The notes under the pieces are model-generated. The model had not been told where the DNA came from, searched no databases, and was given only the letters and a program-made list of their open reading frames with translations. From a virus, in the IMG/VR virus record IMGVR_UViG_3300025009_000398, positions 1 through 21,187 of that record: a stretch of 21,187 nucleotides of DNA; one strand, given 5' to 3'. Each line of letters opens with the position of its first letter. Position 1 is the stretch's first letter. The translations under genes and the position numbers were made by a program. Below are positions 2,170 through 20,421 of the stretch, one piece after another.

Positions 2170-2195
2170 ATTAAATCACCTGAATTTCACCGGCT

Positions 2196-3503: not shown

Positions 3504-3505
3504 CA

Positions 3506-3964
3506 TCATCTCCAAACGTACCGGCGAAAAGACTCCCGGTTTCGGCCGTAGTCTTCGATCGTCGGACCTTCCTGTTTGGCACCAAGCAGCTCCAGCCACC
3601 GATGGGCGATTTCATGGCCTTCAATTGAGCAGCATTCCGCGCGATGCGCGCCCGTTTGTCTCAATGCCGGGATCATAACACGCTTGACGAACTTTGTCAG
3701 GGAAAACGAAATCCGTCGAAAATCGTCGGTCGCGAACATGAACACCGACCACACCCCCGGCCAGGTCGGTATGGCGCCGATGACCGCAATAGGCTTCTCC
3801 AGCCCCGCACACCACGAAAAAGAACCCGCGCCAGCGCAGTCCATCGCCACCACACGAGGGTCTTCCGTCCAACGGGTGGCGTAGATCTCACGGTGGTCCC
3901 ACTCGCGCATACGTTCCGCGACGAACAAGGCGGATTCGTAGGTGACGGGGTTTTGTAGTTCCAT
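3506..3964 (-). CDS. T7 gp13-like internal virion protein (DUF2833 type)
   Basis: A 152-residue protein. I chose the ATG at 3964 because the upstream nozzle gene ends at 3967, leaving a 2-base gap. The body resembles the T7 gp13 family: an N-terminal ALFVAERMREWDHREI helix, a central hydrophobic region (IAVIGAIPTWPGVWSVFMFA), and the C-terminal EGHEIAHRWLELLGA followed by a YG-N-E-F-RY end. The C-terminal half looks like an acetyltransferase (GNAT) fold, where AHRWLELLGA occupies the position of the cofactor-proximal helix. T7 gp13 is needed for proper virion assembly, and catalysis has not been shown for it. The gene lies between the nozzle and gp14-like genes, as in T7. The family call is moderately strong; any enzymatic activity is inference. 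Confidence 0.75.
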   Translation of the reverse strand: MELQNPVTYESALFVAERMREWDHREIYATRWTEDPRVVAMDCAGAGSFSWCAGLEKPIAVIGAIPTWPGVWSVFMFATDDFRRISFSLTKFVKRVMIPALRQTGAHRAECCSIEGHEIAHRWLELLGAKQEGPTIEDYGRNRESFRRYVWR

Positions 3965-3966
3965 CC

Positions 3967-6357: not shown

Positions 6358-7056
6358 TCAGCGCACCCGAATGATCGTGTGCCCGCGCATCGAACGCCGA
6401 GCATCCCCGCCGCCAATGGCGAAAGGCTGATGCAGCCCTGACGTTTGCTTGAGCAGCGACGCCAACCGCCCCTGGCCCGCGGCCAGCTTCAGTTTGGCGT
6501 CCTTGGCATCACGCGACGCCAGGATCTCGGCGGCGGAGAAAAGCACAATCAGTGTGTCGTCAAGGGTCGCCCGGTCGGTGTTCGCCACCAGAGGGTTGAG
6601 GTTACGAATGCCCCGGAACCGAAGTTTCTGCGTGTTGGTCGAGGGAATCGGCCACACCTCGATCTGCGTAGCCGTCTCGCTCGTACGCCGCCAGTCCCAG
6701 CGCAAGGCAGGCTCCGACCGCTCGTCGCCATCACTGTCGTATTCAGCGTATTCCTGGAAACCAATGCCTTGCTCGATCGGGTAGGGCTCGCCGCTCCACT
6801 CGACAGCGACATCGGTGATACGCGCGTCGGAGAGCCCATCGGGCATGTCGTAGTACCGCTGCCCGGCCGCCAGGTCCTTCGAGACATAGAATTGAAGGAA
6901 TTTCCAGTCGTGGTCGTCATAGAGCGTTTCCTGCGTGCGCCGCAGAATTTGCTTCAGATTATCCTCAGCATCGGTGCCGACCGAGACCTTGGAGCTGTCG
7001 CGAGTCTCGGCCCGGAGCTGGCTAACCAGTGTTTGCAGTTGCGTACCCCGGGCCAT
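6358..7056 (-). CDS. T7 gp11-like tail adaptor (tubular protein A)
   Basis: A 232-residue protein starting MARGTQLQTLVSQLRAETRD, with GGGAGA five bases before the ATG. The helical N-terminus carries SVGTDAEDNLKQILRRTQE and LYDDHDWKFL, typical of the adaptor that sits between portal and nozzle in podoviruses. The middle is beta-rich (YYDMPDGLSDARITDVAV, IEVWPIPS) and the C-terminal helix (~160-205) ends in a basic tail. It lies immediately before the nozzle gene with a TGA|ATG junction, so the two proteins are likely made in coupled amounts. In T7 the adaptor forms a dodecameric ring docking onto the portal. The family assignment is strong by motif and position. Confidence 0.82.
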   Translation of the reverse strand: MARGTQLQTLVSQLRAETRDSSKVSVGTDAEDNLKQILRRTQETLYDDHDWKFLQFYVSKDLAAGQRYYDMPDGLSDARITDVAVEWSGEPYPIEQGIGFQEYAEYDSDGDERSEPALRWDWRRTSETATQIEVWPIPSTNTQKLRFRGIRNLNPLVANTDRATLDDTLIVLFSAAEILASRDAKDAKLKLAAGQGRLASLLKQTSGLHQPFAIGGGDARRSMRGHTIIRVR

Positions 7057-7068
7057 TCGACTCTCCCA

Positions 7069-7446
7069 CTATCCGAGGATGCTGGCGGATTCCTCGCCGG
7101 TCTCGGCGATCTCGTCGGGCATCGGCGCCCGGGTCCGCTTGCGCCGGCCGTCGTCAGCCGCCGCCTTGCCACCGTTCACATGGATCGGGAGATCCTGGTG
7201 CGGCGGCCCGAAAATCGCGTTCAAGGTCAGTTCCCGCTTGGCCAGGACAAGACCATACTTGTCCTCCAGGCGGGCCCGCTCCTTCTCGTGCTCGATCTGG
7301 CCGCCCTTGCTCTTCTCCAATTCCACCACTGCGTCACCACCGTGGATGTATTTGAGAATCAGGATTTCGGGGGCTGGAACGTCAGACAGGCGAACCTCAT
7401 TCAGCACGTTGCCGCCAAGGCGAACTTTGCAATTATAAAAATCCAT
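7069..7446 (-). CDS. Conserved phage protein of unknown function, 125 aa
   Basis: A 125-residue protein starting MDFYNCKVRLGGNVLNEV, with AAAGGA nine bases before the ATG. The first ~45 residues look like a small beta/alpha domain ending in EILILKYIHGGDAVVEL; residues ~50-75 are strongly charged and helical (EHEKERARLEDKYGL); the C-terminus is disordered with a basic patch (GRRKRTRAP) and an acidic end. Similar short proteins occur between capsid and tail-adaptor genes of podoviruses, but I know no function. The first gene after the hairpin at 7477-7507, it probably depends on transcription passing that hairpin. A virion-joining or tail-assembly role is possible on context only. Confidence 0.72.
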   Translation of the reverse strand: MDFYNCKVRLGGNVLNEVRLSDVPAPEILILKYIHGGDAVVELEKSKGGQIEHEKERARLEDKYGLVLAKRELTLNAIFGPPHQDLPIHVNGGKAAADDGRRKRTRAPMPDEIAETGEESASILG

Positions 7447-7476
7447 GCGTCGTTATCCTTTCTGCCTGGAAGAAGG

Positions 7477-7507
7477 GGTCGGGAGGGGCGGCGACCCCCT
7501 CCCGACC
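7477..7507 (-). terminator. Strong hairpin after the decoration gene; probable leaky terminator
   Basis: A perfect 12-bp inverted repeat (GGTCGGGAGGGG / CCCCTCCCGACC) with a 7-nt loop begins 10 bases after the TAG of the decoration-like gene. Read leftwards, the stem is followed by CCTTCTTCC, a pyrimidine run with few Ts, so termination would be partial. T7 has its partial terminator (T-phi) at the same point, after the capsid gene and before gene 11. An RNA-processing or stability role is the alternative. Confidence 0.65.
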
Positions 7508-7516
7508 GGTTGAGTG

Positions 7517-8827
7517 CTAGGCCGCGTACTGCGGAACGCCGCGGTTGCCCGGGTCGGCCAACATGGCCAGCAGGGCAAACGACGTGGAACCATCGCAGGC
7601 CGTCGTGGCGTCGTAGGTGCCACGAACGTCGCCCGTGGTCGCAGTCGCCTTGCTGGTGACGCCGGCAACGAACGTGCCGTCCATCTGGTCGTCGGGATCG
7701 ACCGCGATGACGAGCACACCGTTGATTGCGCCCGCCGAGTCAAACCCTGACGCGCCAAGGATCGTGATGAGATCCCCCTTGGCGACAACGGCGGAAGCGT
7801 GGCCCGCCGTGGCCGTATCGGAGTCCAACTCGTCGGCGGCCTCGGTGCCGATGGTGACGGAAAGCCCGTCAACAGGCGTGGCCCCAACGTTCACGGTGAC
7901 GGCCCCGCCGGTGGTGAAAGCGATTTCCACCGCCGTACGAAGTTCGATGATCCGGCCCGCCACCGGGGAGTTGATGAACCACCCGGTCCCGGCATTGATC
8001 TGCGTGGCGCCGTAGTGGAACGGGATGTAGACGTATCCCGGCTTGCGGGGCAGGCACACGCCATCTTCCATCTCGGCCGCGACGTAACTGGCGTCCGGCA
8101 CGTAGACCGGCAGGCCCAGCACGTCGCCCCATCCGAGGTTCAGCGTATTGGCCTCCGCATCGGCCGCGGCGGTGATCGCCACCGACGTTACCTCTTTGAA
8201 CGCCTTGAGACCAGCCGCCGTCTGCGACGTACCGGTCGCGGCGATGGACATCTCCTCGTACATCTCGACGTCGAAAACGTCCTTGCCGGTCACCTTGATC
8301 GTCATGGCCACAACGGACGAGTCGTGAGTGACGGTCGCGGTGATATTGCGAGGGGCGTCCAGCACCCACGTCTGGCTGGCACCGTCGAGCGGCGACGTGC
8401 CGGCCGTCGCGATCGTGTAGGTCACGGTCTCGGTGTCGGGCAACTCGGTGCTGGTGGCCGCCTTGATCAGGCCGTCGGCATCGAGAGTGATCGGAGCGCC
8501 CAGGTCAATCAGGTGCATCCTGGCTGGGACCAGGTTGTTTGGCAAAATGACTTCCTGGACGTCATCGCTGCCGAGCTGATCGAACTGGAAGCGCACGGTG
8601 GTCCCGGCGGGAATGGTCGTCGAACCGTTGTAGGTCACGACGATCGTGGCGCCGAAAGCCACGGTGAAGTCGTTGGGGGCCGCGAAGTTGGCACCCATCG
8701 CATACATCTTGTGCGCGTGCGCCCCGGTGTAGTCGCCGGCGCTGCGGCCGGTGGGGTAGGCGAGCGTGATGGTCCCGGCCGACGCGACGGCGGAGGCGAG
8801 GGAAGTGGTCACAACATCGAAAGACAT
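7517..8827 (-). CDS. Putative capsid decoration / head-associated protein, 436 aa
   Basis: A 436-residue Thr/Ala/Val/Gly-rich protein starting MSFDVVTTSLASAVASAG, with AAGGA eight bases before the ATG. It begins with a beta-rich segment containing AYPTGRSAGDYTGAHAHKM, then alternating beta strands; residues ~280-330 contain a jelly-roll-like stretch (VAGRIIELRTAVEIAFTTGG) and residues ~380-436 another (GVLVIAVDPDDQMDGTFVAG). No signal peptide, membrane helix or catalytic motif is visible. It follows the major capsid gene by 36 bp, the usual place for head-decoration or head-fibre proteins. I infer that it coats or protrudes from the capsid. A structural role is likely; the exact attachment is unknown. 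Confidence 0.7.
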   Translation of the reverse strand: MSFDVVTTSLASAVASAGTITLAYPTGRSAGDYTGAHAHKMYAMGANFAAPNDFTVAFGATIVVTYNGSTTIPAGTTVRFQFDQLGSDDVQEVILPNNLVPARMHLIDLGAPITLDADGLIKAATSTELPDTETVTYTIATAGTSPLDGASQTWVLDAPRNITATVTHDSSVVAMTIKVTGKDVFDVEMYEEMSIAATGTSQTAAGLKAFKEVTSVAITAAADAEANTLNLGWGDVLGLPVYVPDASYVAAEMEDGVCLPRKPGYVYIPFHYGATQINAGTGWFINSPVAGRIIELRTAVEIAFTTGGAVTVNVGATPVDGLSVTIGTEAADELDSDTATAGHASAVVAKGDLITILGASGFDSAGAINGVLVIAVDPDDQMDGTFVAGVTSKATATTGDVRGTYDATTACDGSTSFALLAMLADPGNRGVPQYAA

Positions 8828-8863
8828 GACAAAATTCCTTATTCTCTGTTTCCGACGCCTGGA

Positions 8864-9937
8864 CTACGAAATCCAGTACACGCCCGAGCTGTTGCGCTTC
8901 CGGCAGACGAGACCGCCGGTCGACGTCACCGCGCGATGGATGACGTACTGGTTCTCGGGCCGGGCCGGCGCGTGCCGCTTCTTGTCCTCACCCTCCATCA
9001 TCATCGGAAAGATGTGCTTGGTGTCGAGGAGGAAGAGGTACTTCGACAGCCCCTCATCGTCGAGAGTCGGGTCGTACTCCAGATTGACGCCCTTGAAGGC
9101 GAGATCGGCCACGCTGGCGTCGATCCGGCCGCTCTTCGACCAACCGTCCAGGGTGTAGTTGCCTTTCGCGCGAAGCTCCTGCTCGAAGGCGTCCAGAAAG
9201 TCGGAACCCGCCAGGGCGAGGTGTTTGGGGGCGCCATACCGGCGAAGCTGGCGCATCTCGCGCTGCAGCGCCGTGACGAGCAACTGATTGGCCGGCGTGG
9301 CCACGTTGATCGCGCCGCCGGTCAGCAGGGCCGCCGCCAGGTTCACGTTGGAGCGGTTCCGCCACCAGGTGTTGGTCGACTGGTCAATGCCGGCGACCAC
9401 CGTGGCCGAAGCGGGGTTGTCCAGGATGAACGACCGCACGCCGGGGGCCAGTTTGGAATCCAGGGTGCCGTCGCGCCAGTACATCAGGTTCTCGCCACGG
9501 GCGGTGCCTTCGGCCATGTCCTCGACCTTGTCTTCGAGGAGATTCGCCAGGGCGGTCTTCTCGCGCCCGCTGTGCTCGGACGTGTTCTTGCCGGTCGTGC
9601 TGTCGTTGACGGAGATGCCGTCCTTCTTCAGCTCGGTCATGGTGACCTTGATACCGGAATGCCACTCCTTCCACGGGAAACTCGCGGTTTTGATGTTGGC
9701 CGGGTTGCCGTAGGACACCTCGTCATCCTCGGAGTACCCTTCGATGTCCGTGGTGTACGTGCCCTTCACCCGGACGGTGATGTTCTCCTTGCCGCCGGGG
9801 AAGGTCTTCTTGGCCGACTCCATAGCCTTCAGAAGAGGCTTGTCCTGAATGGTCTGCGACCAGATTTTGCCCTGGTCCATGTGAAAATCGATCACCGCGT
9901 TGGCGATGTTTTCGAGTTCGAGAGCGGTAAAAGGCAT
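8864..9937 (-). CDS. Major capsid (coat) protein, HK97-fold type
   Basis: A 357-residue protein starting MPFTALELENIANAVIDF. Recognisable family elements are KTFPGGKENITVRVKG, LANLLEDKVEDMAEG with LMYWRDGTLD, VRSFILDNPAS followed by STNTWWRNRSNV, and a C-terminal DTKHIFPMMMEGEDKKRH that matches coat proteins of podovirus-like prophages. About 350 residues is the usual size for an unprocessed HK97-fold coat made with a separate scaffold, and a scaffold gene lies directly upstream. AGAGGA stands eight bases before the ATG. The protein would form the icosahedral shell. There is no sign of an N-terminal delta domain or maturation protease, which agrees with scaffold-based assembly. Confidence 0.85.
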   Translation of the reverse strand: MPFTALELENIANAVIDFHMDQGKIWSQTIQDKPLLKAMESAKKTFPGGKENITVRVKGTYTTDIEGYSEDDEVSYGNPANIKTASFPWKEWHSGIKVTMTELKKDGISVNDSTTGKNTSEHSGREKTALANLLEDKVEDMAEGTARGENLMYWRDGTLDSKLAPGVRSFILDNPASATVVAGIDQSTNTWWRNRSNVNLAAALLTGGAINVATPANQLLVTALQREMRQLRRYGAPKHLALAGSDFLDAFEQELRAKGNYTLDGWSKSGRIDASVADLAFKGVNLEYDPTLDDEGLSKYLFLLDTKHIFPMMMEGEDKKRHAPARPENQYVIHRAVTSTGGLVCRKRNSSGVYWIS

Positions 9938-9966
9938 GATGGTTGTCCTCTACGCGGATGGTTGGA

Positions 9967-11034
9967 TCACCGCGCGGCCGATGCCCGAAGCGCCTGGTTC
10001 ACGACGTCCAGGGTCGTCTTCGGCACGGGCTGCGCGTCTGGCGCCGCGCCGCCGGAGACCGGAGGATCGATCGCGTCCTTTTTGCTGGGCCGAAGAGCCT
10101 TGAACTCCGCGTTGACTTCGTCGATCGCCTTTTGGGCGATGGCGACGGCTTCCTTGGCGGAAGGCACATGCCCCAGCTCAAGAACAGCGAGCTTGATTTC
10201 CTTCTGTACTCGCGGCTGCTTGGCCTTATAGTCAGGGTCGGCTGCCCGCCACTTCTGCTCCCACAAGGAGACAGACTGCTGAACCTCCAGCGTGTTCGTC
10301 CGCGTCTGCGTCTGCTGCTGAATGCTCTCGGCCTTGTCCGCCGCTCGCTTCGCCGCTGCCTGCGCAAGCGCTTCCCTCGACTGCGACCGTTGCAGCTGCC
10401 GGGCGTCCTCTTCCGCGATCGCCCCCTGCTTGACTCGCTCAGCCAGTTCCGGTGCCAAAACCTCGCCGGCGATCTGTTCGAGCCGAGCCATGTACGGCCG
10501 CAGAGCTTCCCTCGCCTTGAGCGGTTCCTGCTTCATCAGCCGCATGATCTCGAAACCGGTGCTCACCTCTTCCGAGACGAGGCCCGCTTCCTCGATATAC
10601 GCGGTGATCCGCGTGAACTGCTCGTGCGAATGTTTGAACTGCTTGACCTCCTCGGGCGTACCGATCTCACGGTATTCGTCCCGCTGGGCGAGCAGTTTCC
10701 GTATCCGCTTTTGCGTCTTCGGCTTTTGCGCCTTCAGTTCGTCTTCGGTGACTTCGTCCGGCAGTTCCTCCTCGGCGCCCTTCGACTTGTCGTCGATGGC
10801 CGCCTTATCGGTCCCGTCGGGGCCTTCCTGACCTGTCTCGGAGTCGGGCGCCTGCTCCGCGCCGGGCTTGCTGGCGGCTAAAACTTCGTCCAGCACCTCG
10901 GCGGTCGTCTTTTCGCCCTTGCCATCCGCGGGGGACGGATCCGCGGCAGTCTTTTCTTTTCCGTCCACGTTTTTCCCGTCGACCGGGTTGCCCCGGCCGG
11001 CGGGATCCTTCTCTACCGCTGACGAATTCGGCAT
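9967..11034 (-). CDS. Capsid scaffolding protein
   Basis: A 355-residue, highly charged protein with no hydrophobic core pattern. Residues 1-105 are Asp/Glu/Lys/Gly-rich and probably disordered (EEELPDEVTEDELKAQ at the end). Residues ~105-320 are predicted long helices rich in Ala, Gln, Glu and Arg (QLQRSQSREALAQAAAKRA), and the C-terminus is Pro/Ala-rich and then basic. This composition, and the position between portal and coat genes, are typical of scaffolds that guide procapsid assembly and then leave. GGAGA lies four bases before the ATG. Sequence conservation in such proteins is weak, so the call relies on composition and order. Confidence 0.8.
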   Translation of the reverse strand: MPNSSAVEKDPAGRGNPVDGKNVDGKEKTAADPSPADGKGEKTTAEVLDEVLAASKPGAEQAPDSETGQEGPDGTDKAAIDDKSKGAEEELPDEVTEDELKAQKPKTQKRIRKLLAQRDEYREIGTPEEVKQFKHSHEQFTRITAYIEEAGLVSEEVSTGFEIMRLMKQEPLKAREALRPYMARLEQIAGEVLAPELAERVKQGAIAEEDARQLQRSQSREALAQAAAKRAADKAESIQQQTQTRTNTLEVQQSVSLWEQKWRAADPDYKAKQPRVQKEIKLAVLELGHVPSAKEAVAIAQKAIDEVNAEFKALRPSKKDAIDPPVSGGAAPDAQPVPKTTLDVVNQALRASAAR

Positions 11035-11044
11035 TTCGTCTCCA

Positions 11045-11107
11045 TTAAAGAATCCCGCGCTTCTCGACGCTGGTCTTGTTGAACATGTAGTAAGCGCACT
11101 TTCTCAT
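11045..11107 (-). CDS. Possible 20-residue micro-protein between portal and scaffold
   Basis: A 20-codon frame from ATG at 11107 to TAA at 11045 fills most of the 88-bp gap between portal and scaffold. The peptide starts MRKCAYYMFNK and ends KRGIL. From codon 6 onward nearly all third bases are G or C (TAC, TTC, AAC, AAG, ACC, AGC, GTC, GAG, AAG, CGC, GGG), like neighbouring genes and unlike random intergenic DNA. No good Shine-Dalgarno precedes it, so reinitiation after the portal TGA (15 bases upstream) would be needed. It could be a real micro-gene or the remnant of a longer one. No function is known. Confidence 0.4.
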   Translation of the reverse strand: MRKCAYYMFNKTSVEKRGIL

Positions 11108-11122
11108 TTTTCTACAAAACAA

Positions 11123-13243
11123 TCAAGCAGGAAATGCGGGCTGACCCCCCGGCTCGTTCCGGTTCGCCTGGTCGTCGGCCACCTTACCACCCGCGCCACC
11201 TTGCTGCGCCGGATCCGTCGCCGGGTCACCGGTAGCCATCTGCGCCGCCCCGCCAGCGGCCGACCGCGCCATCTGGTTCATGGCGACGATCGACGGCAGC
11301 CCCTCCACGATCGCCTCGGAAACATCGATGCTGTCGTCCAGCCGCTCGAGCACCTGCCGGGCGAACCACACCGGCGAGATGCCCGGCACCTGCAGCACGG
11401 TCGGCGCCGCCCGCTCCAGGTTAGCCAGCTCCGCCGCCCGATTCGGCCGCCCAGACGACCCGGCTTTAACCTCGAGCCAAATCTCCTTGGCGTTCTGTTC
11501 CGGCGATACCTCCGGCCACACAGCGCCGGGCCCAACGATTTCGACAACGCTCTCCTTGGGCAGTTCCGAGAGCATCATCTGGCTCTGCGACCGCGCGTAA
11601 TCGGTCAGCAGGTCATCCAGGCTGTCGACGTCCGAAGACTGCACGGACATGCGCGAGGACTCGGCGATTGAGCTTTCCGTCGCCGTGCCTCCGCTGTTCG
11701 GCCCGAAATTGGCTTCCTGCGAGCCGACCGTGCGCAACACGTCCTCAAAGATCGGCGTGGTGTCGTAAAGCGCCGGGTCGATCGGCACCGTAGGAAAGCG
11801 CTGGATCAGGTCGCCGACCTTCTGGTTCGGCTGCAGGGCCTTGATTTCCAGCAGGGCACTGTTCGGATGTGACTTGAGCTGATCCTTGTCGGACTGATCC
11901 AGGCCGGCCGACGCCGCCGTGACGTACTTCGGCCGGTTGGCCTGGCGCTGTTCGCGCAAGCCCTGCCGCGACCGATTGTACTCCTGCTGCATGGGATAAA
12001 GCATGCGCACGTCGGAATTCGGGAACAGTTCGCACTCGTGAGCGATGTCGTTGAACGTCAGGGTCAAATACGGCCAGAAGCGCTCCAACATCGGCCGCGG
12101 CGCCGCCGGTTCGCGCAGGAAGTCGGGGTAGCCTTCGGCGACAGTGAGCACCTGGCGATTTTTCTTGTGGTGAATCTCATAGACGACGCAAAGACCCTTG
12201 TGCGCGTCCTTCGCCGACGGCTCGTCGCTCTCGTAGAACTTTTCGAACTTGGTCAACGTGTCGGCCGTGTGCTCCCGATAGTTCTTACCGAGATCGACCT
12301 TGTAAATCTCCTTCACCTCGTCGGGCGTTTTGATAAACTTCTCGGCCACCCAATCGGCGCCGATGAAACCATCCAACTGCTTGCACTTGGGGTCGGGAAT
12401 GATCGCCGTCGACTCGGGGAACAGCGTCACCGGCCCCTCGCGCACGACGATGCTTTCTTTCGACTGCAAGTCAGCCAGCAGCAAACGCAGTTCCTCGACG
12501 TTCGGCGAATCCGGGTCGACGTCGACACCGTCGGCCGCGTCCGCCATCATCCGCTCGGCCACCGAGATCTGCTCGGTCACATCGTTGATGCGCGCCGAGA
12601 TGTCCGGCTGCGGCTCCAAGATGCGCTGGAACCCCAACTTCAAGTAGGCGATGCCGGTCACAATGGCCCGGCGCACCATCATCTTCGCCAGCTTCTTGAA
12701 GCGGGGCTCCTGCTCATCGAGGTAGTAGTGAAACAGGATCTCCAGCGTTTTCCCCATGCGATCCAACATGCGGATGCGCGCCTGCGCCTCGGCGATGTCC
12801 TGCAAAATCGCCTGCGACTGCGGGTCCGCCAGCAGCGGCGCCATCGGGTCGCCCGCCCTTGTGGCCTGCGCCTGGGCGGCCACCGCCTGCTGCGCCGCCA
12901 TCGCGCTCTGCGGGTCGCCATCCCACACCGCGAATTCCAGTCGCTCCCGCCGCTTGGCTCGCGCCCGCGGGTTACGCGCGTAGAGCGCTGCGACCTTCTG
13001 GTTGACGTGCCGCTGGATCAGGTTGGCCACATAATTGTCTGCGCCCACCCAATCACCATCCGCGCCCAATCGCGCCAGGTCCATGTCCCGGCGCATCGCC
13101 TTGAAGTCCTTCTCCCAATACTTCTCGGCGGCGCGCACCTTGGTCAACCACTGCGTCACCAGCGCCTTGCGCGCGGGATCGACTTCCGGCGTCTGGCGAT
13201 CGCCCGAAGGTTCGCTCTGCCGCATTTCCATCTGCTCGTCCAT
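11123..13243 (-). CDS. Portal protein
   Basis: A 706-residue protein. I use the ATG at 13243, one base after the TerL stop, rather than an upstream start inside terL. The N-terminus has AEKYWEKDFKAMRRDMDLAR and DNYVANLIQRHVNQKVAALY, typical of podoviral/P22-type portals; an Ala/Gln-rich helical stretch follows (~110-150), then the clip/stem region with RAIVTGIAYLKLGFQRI. Residues ~395-440 contain YPMQQEYNRSRQGLREQRQ, the conserved portal helix. The C-terminus is low-complexity and Gly/Gln-rich. The size fits the ~700-residue podoviral portal class. It forms the dodecameric ring through which DNA is packaged and to which the gp11-like adaptor binds. Terminase-portal-scaffold-coat order supports the call. 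Confidence 0.88.
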   Translation of the reverse strand: MDEQMEMRQSEPSGDRQTPEVDPARKALVTQWLTKVRAAEKYWEKDFKAMRRDMDLARLGADGDWVGADNYVANLIQRHVNQKVAALYARNPRARAKRRERLEFAVWDGDPQSAMAAQQAVAAQAQATRAGDPMAPLLADPQSQAILQDIAEAQARIRMLDRMGKTLEILFHYYLDEQEPRFKKLAKMMVRRAIVTGIAYLKLGFQRILEPQPDISARINDVTEQISVAERMMADAADGVDVDPDSPNVEELRLLLADLQSKESIVVREGPVTLFPESTAIIPDPKCKQLDGFIGADWVAEKFIKTPDEVKEIYKVDLGKNYREHTADTLTKFEKFYESDEPSAKDAHKGLCVVYEIHHKKNRQVLTVAEGYPDFLREPAAPRPMLERFWPYLTLTFNDIAHECELFPNSDVRMLYPMQQEYNRSRQGLREQRQANRPKYVTAASAGLDQSDKDQLKSHPNSALLEIKALQPNQKVGDLIQRFPTVPIDPALYDTTPIFEDVLRTVGSQEANFGPNSGGTATESSIAESSRMSVQSSDVDSLDDLLTDYARSQSQMMLSELPKESVVEIVGPGAVWPEVSPEQNAKEIWLEVKAGSSGRPNRAAELANLERAAPTVLQVPGISPVWFARQVLERLDDSIDVSEAIVEGLPSIVAMNQMARSAAGGAAQMATGDPATDPAQQGGAGGKVADDQANRNEPGGQPAFPA

Positions 13244-13244
13244 G

Positions 13245-14909
13245 TCAGAACCCCGCTGTCGCCTTGCGCATCTTCCTCTGACGCTCTTCACGCGCCGATG
13301 CCGCCTTGATCCACGAAATCGAACCGACCTTAATCACCTTCTCCTCGCACTGCGGCGCCGCGTCCGCCGCCACCTCCGCCATCAGCCCGCGGCCGATCCA
13401 CGCCAGCCAGTCGACAAAATCATCATGCGTCGCCCGGGGGAACTTCAGCAGTTCCGCCCGCGCCCGCGGCCACCACGGCGCAAACGCGGGGAAGTGGACC
13501 ATTTTCATCGACATGCGGCCCTGAATCGCCCGGGCACGCGCCCGTTTGTCGGCCGACGGCGTCTGCGCGTCGATCGCGCAGTAGACCTTCTCTTCCATCA
13601 TCCGTTTGTAGAGGAACGGGCCAAACGATTTGGAGATGTTTTCGCTTTCCATCCACCATAGCAGCGGCCGACGATTGCGCATCATCGCGATCAATTCCTC
13701 GACGATCCGATCGGTCTCCATACGCTCCCACACTAAATCAGGGAAGATCCAAACGTGATCCTTCTCATCGACGCCGACGCAGCCGATGACGTTGGGGTCG
13801 TTCTTCTTTTTCTCGGTGATGGCGTGATCCGACGCCCCGTAGATGCGCAGATTCCGGGGCAAGTCCTGCGCCTGGTACTCGACAATCCCTTCCGCCTTGA
13901 AATAGTCGCCGTCCTCGGGGTTCGGGTGCCCCTGGTACAGCGCCTCGAAATTGTTCTTGTCAAGCTTCTTGGCCGACGCCAAATGGCGCAGGTTGAATTC
14001 CTCCGGCCACAACGCCGCCATCGGCTTCTTTCCAAACGCCGATACCACCTGCGGATCGGTCGGGATCTCCAGATTTTTGTTCAGCGCCTGGGCGATCGGC
14101 CCGTCGAAGAGTACCGCCGGAATGTTGATATAGTCCCAGCGCGCCGCCTCTTCCTTGCCGTCGTCGGTCTGCCGCCAGGGGTGATCGGGGTCACACATGC
14201 GCCCCAGCAAGTCGTCCTCAACCCAGCGGGTGTGAATGATGACGATCGCCGTTGTGGCACGGACACGCGAATAGATCGTCGAGGAATACCAGTCGTGCAG
14301 CGACTCGATAATCGTCGGGCTATTCGCCTCGCTGTCGCCCTTGATCGGGTCGTCGATCACGACGAGATCGGCCGGCAATCCCGTGCCGGACCCGCCCCGG
14401 CCAACGAAGTTGAGCTGGCCGCCTTCGCAGGTCTCGAGCGCGTCCTTGGCGCGCGAACCCTTATCCAGCGTAACGTGCGGAAAGACGGCAGCATACTGCG
14501 GCGACTGCATGACGCCCCGCACCAGCCCGCCGATCTTGCTGGCATACGTCTCGTTGTACGCCGCGAAAATGGTGTTGCGCCGCGAGTGCCGGCCGGCGTA
14601 CCACGCCGCGAAGTTGACCGAGGCTAACCGCGTCTTGCCGTGCTGCGGAGGCAGCGACATGCCGAGCCGCAGGCACTCGCCCCGGTCGACCCTCTCCAAC
14701 CCCTCGGCCAGCAATATATGGTATGGCTGCGCCCGATAAAGCGAGCGAGTCGCGTCGTCCATATCCTCGGGATCGGGCATCATGAATTCGGCGAAGTCGA
14801 TCAAATTGGTCCGCGCAAGCTGAATCTTCTTCGCCCGCTCCAGCAGGCGAATCTGCCGCTCGGAGTCACCGAGCGACTGCGCGTCCGCTTGCCTACTTCG
14901 ACGCGCCAT
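13245..14909 (-). CDS. terL: Terminase large subunit (packaging ATPase-nuclease)
   Basis: A 554-residue protein that translocates and cuts DNA during packaging. Residues 85-93, SLPPQHGKT, form a deviant Walker A; residues 182-187, LVVIDD, form Walker B; IIHTRWVEDDLLGRM (~224-238) matches the coupling motif. The C-terminal RNase-H-like nuclease is represented by GASDHAI (Asp361), the ESEN segment (~421) and the ATHDDFVD cluster (Asp496/497/500). I place the start at the ATG at 14909 (GGAG four bases before) rather than a TTG six codons upstream. The gene overlaps the holin-like gene by 17 bp and runs into the portal gene one base after its TGA. All expected motifs are intact. Confidence 0.93.
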   Translation of the reverse strand: MARRSRQADAQSLGDSERQIRLLERAKKIQLARTNLIDFAEFMMPDPEDMDDATRSLYRAQPYHILLAEGLERVDRGECLRLGMSLPPQHGKTRLASVNFAAWYAGRHSRRNTIFAAYNETYASKIGGLVRGVMQSPQYAAVFPHVTLDKGSRAKDALETCEGGQLNFVGRGGSGTGLPADLVVIDDPIKGDSEANSPTIIESLHDWYSSTIYSRVRATTAIVIIHTRWVEDDLLGRMCDPDHPWRQTDDGKEEAARWDYINIPAVLFDGPIAQALNKNLEIPTDPQVVSAFGKKPMAALWPEEFNLRHLASAKKLDKNNFEALYQGHPNPEDGDYFKAEGIVEYQAQDLPRNLRIYGASDHAITEKKKNDPNVIGCVGVDEKDHVWIFPDLVWERMETDRIVEELIAMMRNRRPLLWWMESENISKSFGPFLYKRMMEEKVYCAIDAQTPSADKRARARAIQGRMSMKMVHFPAFAPWWPRARAELLKFPRATHDDFVDWLAWIGRGLMAEVAADAAPQCEEKVIKVGSISWIKAASAREERQRKMRKATAGF

Positions 14910-15081
14910 TCCGCTCCGCCCGATCAAGCAGGACTTGCCGGCGCCACCGCCACAGTAGGAAGGCGAGAGTGCTGGCAGCCAACAAAGCCGACAACACGCC
15001 GTTGATGATGCCCAGCCAGGGGACGATGCTGGCCGTCGCCGCCGCGGCTATCGCGCTGTGGTCCAATGCCCGCTCCATCAT
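14893..15081 (-). CDS. Small one-helix membrane protein, holin-like
   Basis: A 62-residue protein starting MMERALDHSAIAAAATA, with one hydrophobic helix at ~20-44 (LGIINGVLSALLAASTLAFL) followed by a basic WRWRR segment and a charged tail. The ATG overlaps the TGA of the 128-aa membrane gene by four bases (ATGA), which fixes the start; a second ATG directly follows. The size, single helix, cationic tail and location just before TerL resemble podoviral holins (T7 17.5 also precedes terminase genes), so it may time host lysis by permeabilising the inner membrane. No endolysin is present in this window, so the assignment is provisional; a spanin-like or unrelated membrane role is possible. Confidence 0.6.
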   Translation of the reverse strand: MMERALDHSAIAAAATASIVPWLGIINGVLSALLAASTLAFLLWRWRRQVLLDRAERNGASK

Positions 15082-15464
15082 GCCCACCCCCACAAGACCA
15101 ACGGAACGCACGCCCAGAACGTGCCTCCCAAAAACAGCTCGCCGATCGCGGTGCCGCCGTCGACAAAAGGCGGCCGGTTCCAACTCGATCGCCAAAAGCG
15201 GAAGGCCAGGGGATACCCGAGACCAAACGGCCCGTACCTCTTAACCGCGCCCCACCCCTCGAATTCGTGAGCCATCGCGAAGAACAGCCCGCACACAGCC
15301 GACGCGAGCAGCGCGGGAAGCGCCGGCCACACCAGCCAGAAGGGCCACACCAAAAGGGGCAGAACGGCGAAGCGAACCCACCGCTCCCCGCCGAGCCAAC
15401 CACCCAGCCAACGCCGCCACAAAGCGCCGACGATGAAAAAAACGATGGACAGCGTAAGGATCAT
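15078..15464 (-). CDS. Phage membrane protein with about three membrane segments
   Basis: A 128-residue protein starting MILTLSIVFFIVGALWRRW. Hydrophobic segments lie at ~2-16, ~33-65 (long enough for two passes) and ~108-127, separated by basic or aromatic loops (RRWLGGWLGGERW, KRYGPFGLGYPLAFRFWR). The ATG at 15464 overlaps the preceding TGA by four bases and has GGAG eight bases before it. I recognise it only as a type of small polytopic phage protein found beside holin-like genes. A lysis accessory or superinfection role is possible from context, but nothing in the sequence proves it. Confidence 0.7.
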   Translation of the reverse strand: MILTLSIVFFIVGALWRRWLGGWLGGERWVRFAVLPLLVWPFWLVWPALPALLASAVCGLFFAMAHEFEGWGAVKRYGPFGLGYPLAFRFWRSSWNRPPFVDGGTAIGELFLGGTFWACVPLVLWGWA

Positions 15465-15871
15465 TGGTCCCACTCCAAAGCCGGCAGTTCGGAAAAAAGC
15501 TGTTCGAGCGTCGGCACCGCGCGGGCGCCTGCGAGCACATCAGCCAAGATAGCCCAAGCGGCCCGCCAAGTGGCGTCGCGCAGATCGACGCCGCGCTGCC
15601 CTTCAGCGGCGAACGCGGCATCGGTGGAAGCCGCGTAGGTACAGAGCGACAGGATGCCATCGTACAGTCGCTCGCGGGCGAAGGCGTCGAGGCGGGCCTG
15701 GATGGCTGCGGACATGCGGGCCTGGACCTGGGCGGGGGTTTCCGGCGACGGCGCCAGGAAGGCCGCCAACTCGGGGTCGCTGTCGTCGCGGATCTCGGTG
15801 GCGCGGCGGCTGGGCGACGGGGAGGCCGACGCGATGGAGCCGGAAGCGTCGAGGGTGAGCCAGTAAAGCAT
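15461..15871 (-). CDS. Conserved phage protein of the tail-fibre region, 136 aa
   Basis: A 136-residue soluble protein starting MLYWLTLDASGSIA. A consensus AGGAGG five bases before the ATG at 15871 sets the start; a GTG two codons earlier would overlap the ribosome site. The first 50 residues are variable (Ser/Pro-rich). Residues ~48-110 hold the recognisable core: ARLDAFARERLYDGILSLCT, then AAFAAEGQRGVDLRDATW and RAAWAILADVLAG. This core recurs next to tail-fibre genes in many phages and prophages. The function is unknown; a fibre-assembly chaperone is a reasonable guess from position. It overlaps the following membrane-protein gene by 4 bp. Confidence 0.72.
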   Translation of the reverse strand: MLYWLTLDASGSIASASPSPSRRATEIRDDSDPELAAFLAPSPETPAQVQARMSAAIQARLDAFARERLYDGILSLCTYAASTDAAFAAEGQRGVDLRDATWRAAWAILADVLAGARAVPTLEQLFSELPALEWDQ

Positions 15872-15880
15872 TTCCACCTC

Positions 15881-16507
15881 CTATTTCGCCGGCCGGCCGA
15901 TTACGGAAAAAATGGCGTCGACGGCGGCGTCGGCCGCCCAGGCGCCGCCGTTGCCCGCGTAATTGCCGGCGTGCGAGGGCGACGTGGTGTCGATGCCGAC
16001 CAGCGGCCGGTTTGAAACGTCGCCGCCGTTGTACTCGACGGTCAGGGCCACGTCCCCGGCGGCGGCCTCGTAATAGGCCGGGAACGTGAACTCGACCATG
16101 GCGAACGCGCCGCCCAGCGTCGCCACGTCGAGCGAGGCGGTGGCCAGGGCCGATCCGGTTGGCACGGCGGTCGAACCGACCGTGCCGCTGACGGCGTACA
16201 GCTTGGCGTAGATCGTGCCGGTCGGGCTGCCCTGCTTTCTCAAATCCCAGGCGACCCCGGTTATCCGGGTCGGTTGGGCCAGGGTGATGCACTGCGCCTT
16301 GCCGGTGTTGCCGCCCGTATACATCGAGTGTTCTTCGTTTTGGTTGGCGATGTCGTAGCTATCGATGACCTGGATAGGCCCCCAGCCGGCGGCCGGGACA
16401 GCCAGCCTTGGCCGGTCGACGATCAACCCGGGCACCGCCACCTGGACCGGTTGGATCAGCCCCGGCCGGCCACGGCGGATCAGTCCGGGCGAGCGCGTGA
16501 CGATCAT
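15881..16507 (-). CDS. Putative adhesin/appendage protein with choice-of-anchor-R-like beta domain
   Basis: A 208-residue protein. After a Pro/Arg-rich N-terminus with three repeats of PGLI (residues ~8-30), residues ~55-170 read like the choice-of-anchor R beta-sandwich: ITGVAWDLRKQGSPTGTIYA, KLYAVSGTVGSTAVPTGSAL, and DVALTVEYNGGD. This domain is found on surface and phage appendage proteins. The C-terminus is Gly/Asn/Ala-rich. The ATG at 16507 overlaps the TGA of the upstream gene by one base; a GTG at 16510 has better ribosome-site spacing and would add one residue. Between a tail-fibre gene and a fibre-region protein, it is likely a receptor-contacting or fibre-tip protein. Confidence 0.65.
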   Translation of the reverse strand: MIVTRSPGLIRRGRPGLIQPVQVAVPGLIVDRPRLAVPAAGWGPIQVIDSYDIANQNEEHSMYTGGNTGKAQCITLAQPTRITGVAWDLRKQGSPTGTIYAKLYAVSGTVGSTAVPTGSALATASLDVATLGGAFAMVEFTFPAYYEAAAGDVALTVEYNGGDVSNRPLVGIDTTSPSHAGNYAGNGGAWAADAAVDAIFSVIGRPAK

Positions 16508-16920
16508 CACGACAGGTCCTGGTACTCGGCGGCGAAGACGACGCCCTCGGTATCCATGGACGTGACGCCGACGACGGCGCCGGCCGGCAGGATGATAGCG
16601 CTGTCCGGCGTTTCCTTGTCAACGAACGTCACCGCCGTCTGAACCGTGGTCGCCGCCACCGTGTAGAGCGCCATCAGTGCGCTCTCATGCAGTTTCCACG
16701 TAGCTCCGGCGTCCTGCGAAATGAACACGTTCAGACGGGCCGCGCCGGCGTTGGTTTCCGTCGCCCAGGCCTTGAGGCTGGTGACGATGGCGCCATCGGC
16801 GCCGGCGGTCAGCAGGGTGATGATCGTCCCCGTGCCGTCCACGTTGGCGTTGGCGGCTGCGGACGCAGCGTGCGCCATCTTGGGGGTTTTTCCGAACACC
16901 GGATCGTTGTTGACGGCCAT
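16507..16920 (-). CDS. Conserved phage structural-type protein, 137 aa
   Basis: A 137-residue protein starting MAVNNDPVFGKTPKMAHA, with AGGAGA five bases before the ATG. It is Ala/Thr/Val-rich and predicted all-beta. The pattern DGTGTIITLLTAGADGAIVT followed by LNVFISQDAG and ILPAGAVVGVTSMDTEG fits a family of small phage proteins found in capsid or tail-fibre clusters, starting MAVN-DPVF-KTPK. The specific function is unknown; it may be a fibre-associated trimer or head-tip protein. It follows the fibre gene by 9 bp and overlaps the next gene by one base, so all three are probably made together. Confidence 0.68.
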   Translation of the reverse strand: MAVNNDPVFGKTPKMAHAASAAANANVDGTGTIITLLTAGADGAIVTSLKAWATETNAGAARLNVFISQDAGATWKLHESALMALYTVAATTVQTAVTFVDKETPDSAIILPAGAVVGVTSMDTEGVVFAAEYQDLS

Positions 16921-16929
16921 GATCTTCTC

Positions 16930-17655
16930 CTATCGGGCCAGGTTGAAAAGGGAAAGGCGGGCGGCGTTCTTCACACGCACGGGGGCGTTGCTGAAAAGAA
17001 GCGACGCCGCCACTCCGCGGACCGTGACGTCGATGTCCGCGTCTTTCAAAATTGTCGCGTCGGCGGGCTCGTACACCCCGTTGTGCCCGTGGTCGCCGGC
17101 CGCCACGGTCCCAGCCGTCGTGCCGACGTCCAAAGTCGCCGAATCGCCAAGATCGGCGGTGTTCGCCTTCTCGGACGCCAGTTCGTCGATCGCGGCCTGG
17201 GCGTCGTCCGCCGTCAGGCTGGAGGTGGCGTTGTTGTAGGTGACCTCATCAGCGGCATACGAACCGTTCTCGATCAACAGCCACTTGCCGGCGGCCAAAT
17301 CCGTCGCGAACGTGCCCGCCGTGTGCGCCACCGCGCAGACGTAGGTGTTCCCGCCACTGGTGACGACGTCGCTCTGCGCGTAGACGGTGGTCGTCGTCCA
17401 CGCGCCCTCGGGAGACCACGCGCCCCCCATCAGCGCCAGCGACGCCGCGGTAAAGCTGTCCGGGGTCACTACCGCGTTGGCGATCGCGCCGTCGTCCCTC
17501 TGGATCAAAGCCAGGTTGGTGCGGATCTCGTCGGTGGTGGTCTTGATCGCGGCCAGCTCGATGTCGACCTTGTCACCGGGCAGCGGGTCCGCCGGGTTGC
17601 TCGTCTGGTAGTCGCTGAAATCGTAGGCCGGGTTGTAGGCGGTCGGCTGCGCCAT
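16930..17655 (-). CDS. Short tail fibre / appendage protein
   Basis: A 241-residue protein starting MAQPTAYNPAYDFSDYQTSN. The N-terminal ~55 residues (PLPGDKVDIELAAIKTTTDE, then NLALIQRDDG) are the typical attachment region of podoviral tail fibres. Residues ~80-127 resemble a small carbohydrate-binding module (AWTTTTVYAQSDVVTSGGNT, with YVC and W125). Residues ~140-200 contain a helical AQAAIDELASEKAN coil and the fibre motif GDHGHNGVYEPADATILKD. GGAG lies seven bases before the ATG. At 241 residues it is short for a complete fibre; the adjacent two genes may provide the receptor-binding part. The role in host adsorption is inferred from the motifs. Confidence 0.75.
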   Translation of the reverse strand: MAQPTAYNPAYDFSDYQTSNPADPLPGDKVDIELAAIKTTTDEIRTNLALIQRDDGAIANAVVTPDSFTAASLALMGGAWSPEGAWTTTTVYAQSDVVTSGGNTYVCAVAHTAGTFATDLAAGKWLLIENGSYAADEVTYNNATSSLTADDAQAAIDELASEKANTADLGDSATLDVGTTAGTVAAGDHGHNGVYEPADATILKDADIDVTVRGVAASLLFSNAPVRVKNAARLSLFNLAR

Positions 17656-17724
17656 GAGTGGTCTCCATCGGTCGGGACTCGGCGTCTCGCGACGCCGACG
17701 GGAAAAACATACACCGCTTCGCTG

Positions 17725-17753
17725 TTGCTTTCTACAAAATCCCGCAATACACT
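17725..17753 (+). promoter_or_regulatory. Sigma70-like promoter for a candidate small RNA
   Basis: TTGCTT at 17725-17730 and TACACT at 17748-17753 are separated by exactly 17 bp, reading rightwards. No plus-strand gene follows, but a Rho-independent terminator ends about 90 bases later. The predicted start is near 17760. Confidence 0.5.
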
Positions 17754-17759
17754 ACGCGC

Positions 17760-17848
17760 GGACGTTACGGGTTCCTTTCACCCCATCGTTCCTTTCGGTC
17801 GGTTCAAGCAAACTTCCCCCGGTGCTTCGCGGCGCCGGGGGTTTTTTT
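17760..17848 (+). ncRNA. Candidate small regulatory RNA with anti-Shine-Dalgarno elements
   Basis: This ~89-nt unit lies in the 413-bp gap between TerS and the tail-fibre gene and is oriented against both. It is bounded by a promoter-like pair (17725-17753) and a strong terminator (17816-17848). The unstructured 5' part contains GTTCCTTTC twice (17771-17779 and 17788-17796), complementary to a ribosome-binding site. GGTTCCTTTCAC at 17770-17781 is exactly complementary, over 12 bases, to the leader of the gene starting at 19298 (19282-19293). Shorter matches of 7-8 bases exist to leaders at 18701, 19665, 20166 and 20405. I infer a trans-acting RNA repressing early-operon translation; the minimal alternative is a fortuitous promoter before an orphan terminator. 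Confidence 0.45.
17816..17848 (+). terminator. Rho-independent terminator in plus orientation
   Basis: A 10-bp stem (CCCCCGGTGC / GCGCCGGGGG, one G-T pair) with a 6-nt loop TTCGCG is followed by seven Ts. Read on the minus strand there is no T-run, so it acts rightwards only. No plus-strand protein gene precedes it, which supports a short RNA ending here. Confidence 0.8.
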
Positions 17849-17926
17849 GTGCCGATTTCCTGTTTGGCTTTTTTGGGCCGCGACGCGAGGCAGACAGCGC
17901 GTTCAGTTCTTCGCTGCTTCGGCTGC

Positions 17927-17943
17927 TAGCAAGCCGTTTGCTA
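17927..17943. promoter_or_regulatory. Second copy of the 17-bp palindromic operator-like site
   Basis: TAGCAAGCCGTTTGCTA matches the site at 18652-18668 at 16 of 17 positions, and its outer bases extend the symmetry to CTAG...CTAG. It lies 272 bp before the fibre start (leftward sense) and 126 bp past the TerS stop. I see no convincing promoter overlapping it. Confidence 0.55.
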
Positions 17944-18068
17944 GTTAGTTTGGCGAGGCGGAAAATTTGTCGAAGCGGGTGGCCGCCGTCCGCGGCAACG
18001 TCACCCCCTCCCCCCGGGGGGCCGGGAACAACCTTGGGGGCCGAGCGGGGAATGTCACATACCCTTGC
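17944..18068. other. GC-rich noncoding stretch after TerS, with a C6G6 palindrome
   Basis: This is the remainder of the gap between TerS and the fibre gene. It contains a perfect 12-bp palindrome CCCCCCGGGGGG (18010-18021) inside runs of C and G, and no plausible gene. A position next to the small-terminase gene is where packaging start sites (pac/cos) are often found, but nothing here proves it. Confidence 0.35.
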
Positions 18069-18602
18069 TTACCCATATATATCAACGTCTTGCCCGTCCT
18101 GCTGCGCGCTACCCTGCGCGTTATCCGGGGCCACGTCGATCACCTGCGCCTGATCGGACCGGGCCGTCTTGGCGTCCTGCAACGCCTGCTCGATCTCCTC
18201 AAGGGACATCTCACCTATGCCTCTTGAGCGGCCCCCAGCGGCTTGCGCGGCGCCTTGAGCACTGTGGCCGGCCATGCTGACCAAGGTCTTAGCGGCTTCA
18301 AGCTGGATCTTCTTTCCGCCTTCCGTCGTCGCGTCGACAGTTGCGTAACGCTCAATAACCTTAATCGCTTTGGTCGCAGCCCGTCGGATTACCCCTTTTT
18401 GTGCCTCAAAAACAGCCATCTGCACGTGAGGCGACGAAAGTGCATTAAAAATGTGCATTTCCGTCAACCCGAGAACAGCCGCAATATCGGCCGGCGACGC
18501 GCCCCCCATGACCAAAGCCGCAATCTCGCGATCACGGTCATTTGCCTCTTTTTTGGGCAGGAAGCGCCCCAGTGCATCTTTTTTAATCATGTCTTGTGCC
18601 AT
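18069..18602 (-). CDS. terS: Terminase small subunit (DNA recognition)
   Basis: A 177-residue protein with a basic N-terminus (MIKKDALGRFLPKKEA), a helix-turn-helix at ~25-55 (REIAALVMGGASPADIAAVL then TEMHIFNAL), a central helical oligomerisation region (VIRRAATKAIKVIERYAT, KIQLEAAKTLVSMAG), and an acidic Gln-rich C-terminus that usually contacts TerL. This matches terminase small subunits, which bind the packaging site and load the TerL motor. TerL itself is 3.2 kb downstream, after the fibre and membrane genes. No Shine-Dalgarno is visible before the ATG at 18602; a promoter-like pair places the transcription start at that ATG, so the message may be leaderless. A second ATG four codons in (18590) is the alternative start. 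Confidence 0.82.
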   Translation of the reverse strand: MAQDMIKKDALGRFLPKKEANDRDREIAALVMGGASPADIAAVLGLTEMHIFNALSSPHVQMAVFEAQKGVIRRAATKAIKVIERYATVDATTEGGKKIQLEAAKTLVSMAGHSAQGAAQAAGGRSRGIGEMSLEEIEQALQDAKTARSDQAQVIDVAPDNAQGSAQQDGQDVDIYG

Positions 18603-18643: not shown

Positions 18644-18672
18644 TTGACGTGTAGCAAACCGTTTGCTATATG
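18644..18672 (+). promoter_or_regulatory. Rightward early-operon promoter
   Basis: TTGACG (18644-18649), a 17-bp spacer, and TATATG (18667-18672) give a good sigma70-like promoter reading into the small-gene operon. Its spacer contains the 17-bp palindrome at 18652-18668, so a bound protein would block RNA polymerase. A further palindrome, CAACA-CC-TGTTG (18635-18646), overlaps the -35 and lies between the divergent promoters. Confidence 0.65.
18652..18668. promoter_or_regulatory. Perfect 17-bp palindromic operator in the early promoter
   Basis: TAGCAAAC-C-GTTTGCTA has perfect 8-bp arms around one base. The GCAAAC/GTTTGC half-sites resemble those bound by LacI-family repressors, though those usually have an even-length centre. 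It occupies the spacer of the rightward promoter and stands 15 bp behind the -35 of the TerS promoter, so one regulator could affect both. No gene for such a regulator is obvious here; the HTH protein at 20419 is a candidate. Confidence 0.7.
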
Positions 18673-18721
18673 TTATACAACAAAGCAGACAAACCCGACA
18701 TGAAAGGACACCGAAATCGTC

Positions 18722-19158: not shown

Positions 19159-19338
19159 GTGGCCGACAACCGCGCCGAGGCCGAGATCTTCGGCAAGGTC
19201 ATCAAGTCTCGGTGGCCGCTCCACCCAGAAGCCATCTCTGACGACGATTACGATAAAATGCTGGCCGAGAACGCTGACAGCGTGAAAGGAACCAACCATG
19301 AACTACCGTCCTCGCCGTGCAAGCAAACGCTGGCTTGA
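19159..19338 (+). CDS. Small hypothetical protein, 59 aa, GTG start, overlapping the next gene
   Basis: The frame reads VADNRAEAEIFGKVIKSRW, then PLHPEAISDDDYDKMLAENA, and continues 41 bases into the next gene before TGA at 19336-19338. Codon use changes to mostly G/C third bases exactly at the GTG (19159), while codons before it look random, so I take this as the start; GAGG lies 10 bases upstream, and an alternative TTG at 19123 would overlap the preceding gene. The charged, amphipathic composition suggests a small soluble helical protein. The 41-bp overlap is unusual for this window, so the C-terminus may have been extended by a mutation. No function is recognisable. Confidence 0.45.
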   Translation: MADNRAEAEIFGKVIKSRWPLHPEAISDDDYDKMLAENADSVKGTNHELPSSPCKQTLA

Positions 19339-19633: not shown

Positions 19634-19677
19634 CCGCGCCCAACACGTAGAAAACCGCGAATAGAAGGAACCAAGCC

Positions 19678-19781: not shown

Positions 19782-20168
19782 ATGCTTTCTGTTAAGCGCA
19801 AATCCGACCGAGCCGCCATGGTCGCGGATTTGGCCCGCGTCGCCACCGAACACGGCGCCACCGTTGAAATCGAAGCTGAACCCGGTTGTTTCCTTGGTAA
19901 GCGCGCGAATCTCGTGCAAATCCGCGCGCCCCGCGGCCTGTGCCTCAACGTCGGTATCGATGGCTCAAGCGAATTGGGAAATACTCACGTCCTATCTTGG
20001 TTCATCCCACACAACTTTGACACCCGCTTGGCCGTCACCTTCGCGCCCAGCGTCAACGAATTCCATTTTCACAAGGCAACGGATGTGGCCTACGATTTCA
20101 AAGAATTGCTAGCGATCGTGGCCCTTCGCCTCAATAGCGCCGCCAACGGATCCGCATTCCAGGATTGA
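19782..20168 (+). CDS. Hypothetical early-operon protein, 128 aa
   Basis: A 128-residue protein starting MLSVKRKSDRAAMVADLARV; GAGGAG eight bases before the ATG defines the start. The N-terminal helix (~8-28) is followed by a beta-rich body: GATVEIEAEPGCFLGKRANL, LCLNVGIDGSSE, and LAVTFAPSVNEFHFHKATD. The end is helical (FKELLAIVALRLNS). It has two Cys, not paired as a metal site, and no membrane helix. The composition suggests a small alpha/beta fold. I do not recognise the family or a function. It follows the lipobox peptide by 14 bp and is followed by the zinc-ribbon-like gene with a shared junction sequence (TTGAAAGGCCCCACCATG). Confidence 0.75.
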   Translation: MLSVKRKSDRAAMVADLARVATEHGATVEIEAEPGCFLGKRANLVQIRAPRGLCLNVGIDGSSELGNTHVLSWFIPHNFDTRLAVTFAPSVNEFHFHKATDVAYDFKELLAIVALRLNSAANGSAFQD

Positions 20169-20182
20169 AAGGCCCCACCATG
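20165..20182 (+). repeat. Gene-junction repeat, copy 1
   Basis: TTGAAAGGCCCCACCATG includes the TGA stop of the 128-aa gene, the ribosome site AAAGG and the ATG of the next gene. An identical 18-bp copy occurs at 20404-20421. Such stop-SD-start linkers may help gene cassettes recombine or be regulated alike. Confidence 0.7.
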
Positions 20183-20407
20183 GCTTATTTCGCTCAAGAC
20201 GGCTCAATGCACGGATGGAATGACCGCAAAGGCTATCATCCCGGCGCCCCCATAACCCGCGTGCTTTGTGATGAGTGCGCAAAAAAGGAAGTCGAATTCG
20301 AAACATGCGTCTTTGCCGACGGCAAAAAGCACTCGCACCAAAAACACCCCTGGAAGTGGGCGCCTTTTTTTGGCACGACCTGCGACGTCTGTGGCTCAAA
20401 ATGTTGA
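20180..20407 (+). CDS. Small zinc-ribbon-like protein, 75 aa
   Basis: A 75-residue protein starting MAYFAQDGSMHGWN. Six Cys are present (30, 33, 43, 68, 71, 75). The pairs C-D-E-C (30/33) and C-D-V-C (68/71) look like the two knuckles of a zinc ribbon, with Cys75 and several His (51-55) as further possible ligands. The ATG at 20180 has AAAGG seven bases upstream. Phage zinc ribbons of this size often bind nucleic acid or host proteins; no specific role can be read from the sequence. It lies between two junction repeats, as if inserted as a cassette. Confidence 0.7.
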   Translation: MAYFAQDGSMHGWNDRKGYHPGAPITRVLCDECAKKEVEFETCVFADGKKHSHQKHPWKWAPFFGTTCDVCGSKC

Positions 20408-20421
20408 AAGGCCCCACCATG
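20404..20421 (+). repeat. Gene-junction repeat, copy 2
   Basis: Identical to 20165-20182. Here the TGA stop belongs to the zinc-ribbon-like gene and the ATG to the HTH gene. The two copies are 239 bp apart and enclose the zinc-ribbon gene exactly, from stop codon to stop codon. Confidence 0.7.

Follow-up and report, generated by a model that had tools for sequence, protein, structure and literature searches.

Does the gap that separates the small-terminase gene of this phage from its tail-fibre gene encode a small RNA aimed at the ribosome sites of the phage's own early genes, or does it merely hold a terminator next to antisense copies of a ribosome-site module? The window, which is the whole 21,187-base IMG/VR virus record that was analysed, has its late operon (terminase, coat and tail genes) on the minus strand, whereas its small early genes form a short cluster on the plus strand. 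The closest relatives available, IMGVR_UViG_3300001242_000042 (43 kb; G001 below) and 3300025000_000394 (25 kb), are 98.6-98.7% identical to it in the late genes. The initial annotation placed a plus-strand transcription unit in the gap, with a promoter, two anti-Shine-Dalgarno elements and a terminator.

The gap and its elements

The 413-bp gap is flanked by minus-strand genes at 16930-17655 and 18069-18602, and the features within it are as follows.

17725-17753, plus strand: proposed promoter TTGCTT-N17-TACACT, 7/12 consensus matches (3/6 + 4/6)
17756-17848, plus strand: candidate small RNA of about 90 nt in the non-coding gap, 5' end approximate
17769-17783, plus strand: predicted hairpin GGGU-UCCUUUC-ACCC, the 7-nt loop displaying the first anti-ribosome-site element
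17771-17779, plus strand: first copy of GTTCCTTTC
17788-17796, plus strand: second copy of GTTCCTTTC, partly unpaired
17816-17848, plus strand: intrinsic (Rho-independent) terminator of 11 pairs (9 G-C) with a 4-base loop, then T7
17752-17796, minus strand: module GAAAGGAAC, with a 9-codon frame a few nt on
17927-17943, no strand assigned: operator-like palindrome TAGCAAGCCGTTTGCTA, a copy of one in the early promoter

The terminator is present where the initial annotation had put it, after a non-coding stretch. Its stem occupies 17816-17841 and the seven T follow directly; it is the sole structure of its class on either strand of the window and also the strongest, and when the whole window was dinucleotide-shuffled 60 times, an equally strong one never arose. 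Therefore, the plus-strand terminator at this position is clearly above chance. No open reading frame starts in the 60 nt ahead of it, and the sequence confirms that no gene lies between the promoter-like site and the terminator and that both flanking genes are on the minus strand.

The proposed promoter is a different matter. The two hexamers are where they were said to be, but they do not rise above chance: 242 plus-strand sites in the window score at least as well, and the site is absent from the list of a standard promoter scan. With 7 of 12 consensus matches and so many equals, it was rejected as evidence for the RNA.

The second element of the proposal, that the RNA would carry GTTCCTTTC twice, holds, as both copies were found. 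In 1.9% of the window segments, some 9-mer recurs within 60 nt. The candidate RNA has a minimum free energy of -33.7 kcal/mol, most of it supplied by the terminator, and a fold z of only -1.4; the loop bases of the hairpin have a predicted unpaired probability of 0.98-1.0. Terminator and anti-site elements are on one strand within 90 nt. A non-coding RNA that ends there would be the most natural role for an isolated strong terminator in such a gap, given the anti-site elements on its strand.

The same bases can be read from the other side. In reverse complement, the anti-site elements read AAGGAAC(C), a recurring ribosome-site module of the early genes, and so they could equally be copies of that module on the minus (late-transcribed) strand. 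AAGGAAC precedes the starts of two early genes in the window and of four in G001; beyond these, the window has just two copies, both on the minus strand of the gap. The upstream one of the gap copies is followed, at a distance comparable with that in early leaders, by a minus-strand frame of nine codons (17781-17752: GTG AAA GGA ACC CGT AAC GTC CGC GCG TAG), and the second copy sits inside this frame with no start codon after it. Since a single stretch of DNA displays the anti-site on the plus strand and the site module on the late strand, complementarity alone cannot separate the two.

The palindrome TAGCAARCCGTTTGCTA beyond the terminator has two copies, at 17927-17943 and 18652-18668. The latter is within the spacer of an early promoter candidate.

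18644-18672, plus strand: early promoter candidate TTGACG-N17-TATATG, with the palindrome (18652-18668) in its spacer

The early promoter of G001 (TTGACA-N17-TATATT) has the same palindrome with altered flanks; it looks like a repressor operator common to the early promoter and the late-side gap. A pattern scan of IMG/VR for the palindrome returned seven stretches, which is about chance level, and apart from G001 none of them matches the gap beyond the 17 bases. On the minus strand, TCGACA-N18-ACTAAC (17927-17973), with the palindrome immediately downstream, is a weak candidate for a repressor-controlled leftward late-gene promoter inside the gap. The alphaproteobacterial SOS-box consensus is GTTC-N7-GTTC, and the GTTC spacings in the gap are 17 and 14, not 11. 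The gap contains no tRNA or tmRNA remnant.

Complementarity to the leaders

The leaders to which the RNA is complementary include the following.

19282-19293, plus strand: GTGAAAGGAACC, ribosome-site leader of the 111-aa gene, 12 nt complementary to 17770-17781
19665-19672, plus strand: AAGGAACC, leader of a short lipobox peptide, 8 nt complementary plus one G-U
17668-17675, minus strand: CCGACCGA, leader of the tail-fibre gene, complementary to 17795-17802 of the RNA

The perfect 12-nt complement claimed for the 111-aa leader is real and was recovered as an inverted repeat, and the shorter matches reported with it (8 nt at 19665-19672 and at 18701-18708, and 7 nt in two junction repeats) are confirmed. 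A 12-nt complement to a leader is found in 0.2-0.3% of dinucleotide-shuffled 60-mers and in 0.4-0.7% of the real 60-nt segments of the window, so that the match to the 111-aa leader is nominally rare (p about 0.002-0.007), though it was picked post hoc. The caveat attached to the original claim, that richness in pyrimidines by itself explains the match, is not borne out, since none of 1115 equally pyrimidine-rich segments from positions 1-17600 reaches 12 nt. Matches of at least 7 nt are seen with seven of 20 leaders, where shuffles average 2.2 (p 0.0065). The same 3.7 kb also contains a perfect inverted repeat of 14 nt without evident meaning.

Pairing energies corrected for accessibility were calculated for 25 leaders with a simple script of our own, which considers uninterrupted helices only. 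The best of the 25 targets is the leader of the adjacent tail-fibre gene (-11.2 kcal/mol, through RNA segment 17795-17802). The initial annotation had the RNA pairing with early leaders; of these, that of the 111-aa gene is second with a net -8.7 kcal/mol, and the lipobox leader scores poorly, at only -2.4 kcal/mol. The junction-repeat leaders are weak as well (-1.3 and -5.4 kcal/mol), and the value of -5.4 arises from another segment of the RNA.

Relatives and known RNA families

G001 covers all of the window but 16384-18489, a stretch of 2.1 kb that includes the gap, and some divergent early stretches, and 3300025000_000394 ends at window position 17012; therefore, neither of them holds the gap with the proposed RNA. 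The stretch 16384-18489 is perhaps a recombination hot spot: both contig ends of G001 and one of the 25-kb relative are located in or at it, and a more distant relative (L004) has only the C-terminal end of the tail fibre in common with the window.

The targets can be compared in G001. The 111-aa leader there is ATAGAAGGAACC, not GTGAAAGGAACC, and 8 of the 12 nt are complementary contiguously. The lipobox leader of G001 is identical to that of the window, and another G001 gene (13621) has a 10-nt match, GAAAGGAACC, at -6.7 kcal/mol. Taken together, the shortened match, the kept lipobox leader and the 10-nt match elsewhere imply that the shared core is the module and not the 12-mer. There is early-gene mosaicism at the proposed target site: at 19160-19300 (compared with L038:411-1193), a gene present in G001 as a 132-aa frame is reduced in the window to its C-terminal end, one further G001 gene is absent from the window, and the break is immediately upstream of the 111-aa leader. 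At 20165-20182 and 20404-20421, the same 18-nt ribosome-site leader, TTGAAAGGCCCCACCATG, stands ahead of two adjacent early genes; this duplicate and AAGGAACC suggest that leaders move as modules at gene junctions.

Homologues of the gap were found neither in phages and plasmids, nor in 385 genomes (the class of the Alphaproteobacteria bin), nor in IMG/VR pattern scans. The search of the 385 genomes returned five short matches of 32-53 bases, and the two inspected are terminator-like. The gap module is absent among 113 stretches with a double GTTCCTTTC and among 69 with TTCCTTTC ahead of a G5T6 terminator. The DNA upstream of four related tail-fibre loci (L013, L032, L036 and L162) differs from that of the window, and a small-terminase search of the 385 genomes and the phages gave no match.

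No Rfam family matches the gap RNA at threshold. The best sub-threshold match is suhB (mmgR, RF00519), with 22 bits against a cut-off of 41; it spans the full model (E 0.009 on 151 bases). The two resemble each other in length (about 77-90 nt for mmgR/suhB, also called alpha-r8), in a 3' hairpin with a long U-run and in an anti-Shine-Dalgarno element in the 5' part. However, the CUCCC of mmgR is not at the aligned place in the phage candidate. The alignment is carried by the terminator, on which several unrelated small-RNA and cis-regulatory models also reach 13-18 bits. With its score below the gathering score, and with CUCCC unmatched in the alignment, the candidate falls short of this family on both counts.

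In the alpha-r14, or cuckoo, RNAs, several loops each display a CCUCCUCCC motif (PMC10746234). The candidate resembles NfeR1/alpha-r14 and AbcR1/2 in having redundant pyrimidine-rich anti-Shine-Dalgarno motifs in unpaired regions (PMC10746234, PMC7143759), but its motif is UUCCUUUC and not CCUCCUCCC, in two copies of which one is in a hairpin loop. It is also phage-borne, and a relation in sequence to these RNAs was not found; CCUCCUCCC is absent from 17756-17848. Closer in kind are the phage antisense RNAs that block translation, namely c4 RNA of P1/P7, sar RNA of P22 and OOP RNA of lambda; the pairing of c4 with the ribosome-site region of its target probably involves loops (PMC12197685). 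These are likewise short phage RNAs that base pair with phage mRNA, and the candidate has an intrinsic terminator at its 3' end as phage small RNAs that block translation do, a functional kind and not a sequence family. However, c4, sar and OOP have been shown experimentally, whereas the candidate and its effect are predicted from sequence, and c4 and sar target an antirepressor mRNA, of which none is known in this phage.

Readings of the locus

What stands of the original small-RNA interpretation is a plausible terminator-ended non-coding unit with an exposed anti-site loop; the promoter is no better than chance, the 12-nt target is not kept in the nearest relative and the lipobox pairing scores poorly. 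We tentatively prefer, with rather less than even confidence, the reading in which the RNA exists, cis-antisense pairing with late mRNA is its surest interaction and trans effects are possible. In this reading the gap would be a control region, the plus strand of which most likely encodes a non-coding RNA of about 90 nt ending at the strong terminator. If made, the RNA would be fully complementary to the gap within any late minus-strand mRNA that reads through, and cis-antisense pairing would for this reason be the surest interaction. The loop UCCUUUC and the second UUCCUUUC could in addition pair in trans with the module AAGGAACC of some early genes, which would mask ribosome entry.

Nearly as likely, although on balance doubtful, is that the terminator only insulates. 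It would keep stray rightward transcription from running across the late operon into the gap operator and the early control region, the GTTCCTTTC pair would be the antisense of GAAAGGAAC modules that are remnants of gene starts or of a 9-codon leader frame, and there would be no regulatory small RNA. The operator palindrome and early control region just beyond the terminator fit this arrangement, as do a promoter no better than chance and the fact that AAGGAAC is the ribosome-site module of this phage group, with both gap copies reading as the module on the late-gene strand and a GTG frame after the first copy at the spacing of early leaders. However, the second copy has no start codon after it, the frame is just nine codons long, and to the left there is no rightward gene for which a terminator would be needed. 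The initial idea, that an RNA from the late side turns off early genes, is a guess. In its specific form, a trans-acting RNA that silences the early operon late in infection, above all the 111-aa gene, whose ribosome site it would cover, it is unlikely; the nominally rare 12-nt complement, its second rank among 25 leaders and the 10-nt match ahead of another G001 gene speak for it, and the loss of all but 8 nt of the match at this gene in G001 and the weak lipobox and junction-repeat leaders speak against it. Quite unlikely, too, is that one RNA with loops complementary to AAGGAACC serves as a phage-wide translational off-switch for all of the genes that bear the module. Least probable is a phage copy or mimic of alphaproteobacterial mmgR/suhB that acts on host mRNAs. 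A genuine mmgR (62 bits) is present in a bacterial genome bin that carries a related terminase, and suhB is the best Rfam match of the candidate, but that match is sub-threshold and terminator-borne with CUCCC unmatched, and unrelated models score on the same terminator.

A real RNA at this locus would extend the set of phage-encoded small RNAs, a class with few tested members, and by aiming at the phage's own ribosome-site module it would provide a simple means of co-regulating genes that lie apart. If there is no such RNA, the locus illustrates that a ribosome-site module, read in antisense, can mimic an anti-Shine-Dalgarno small RNA.
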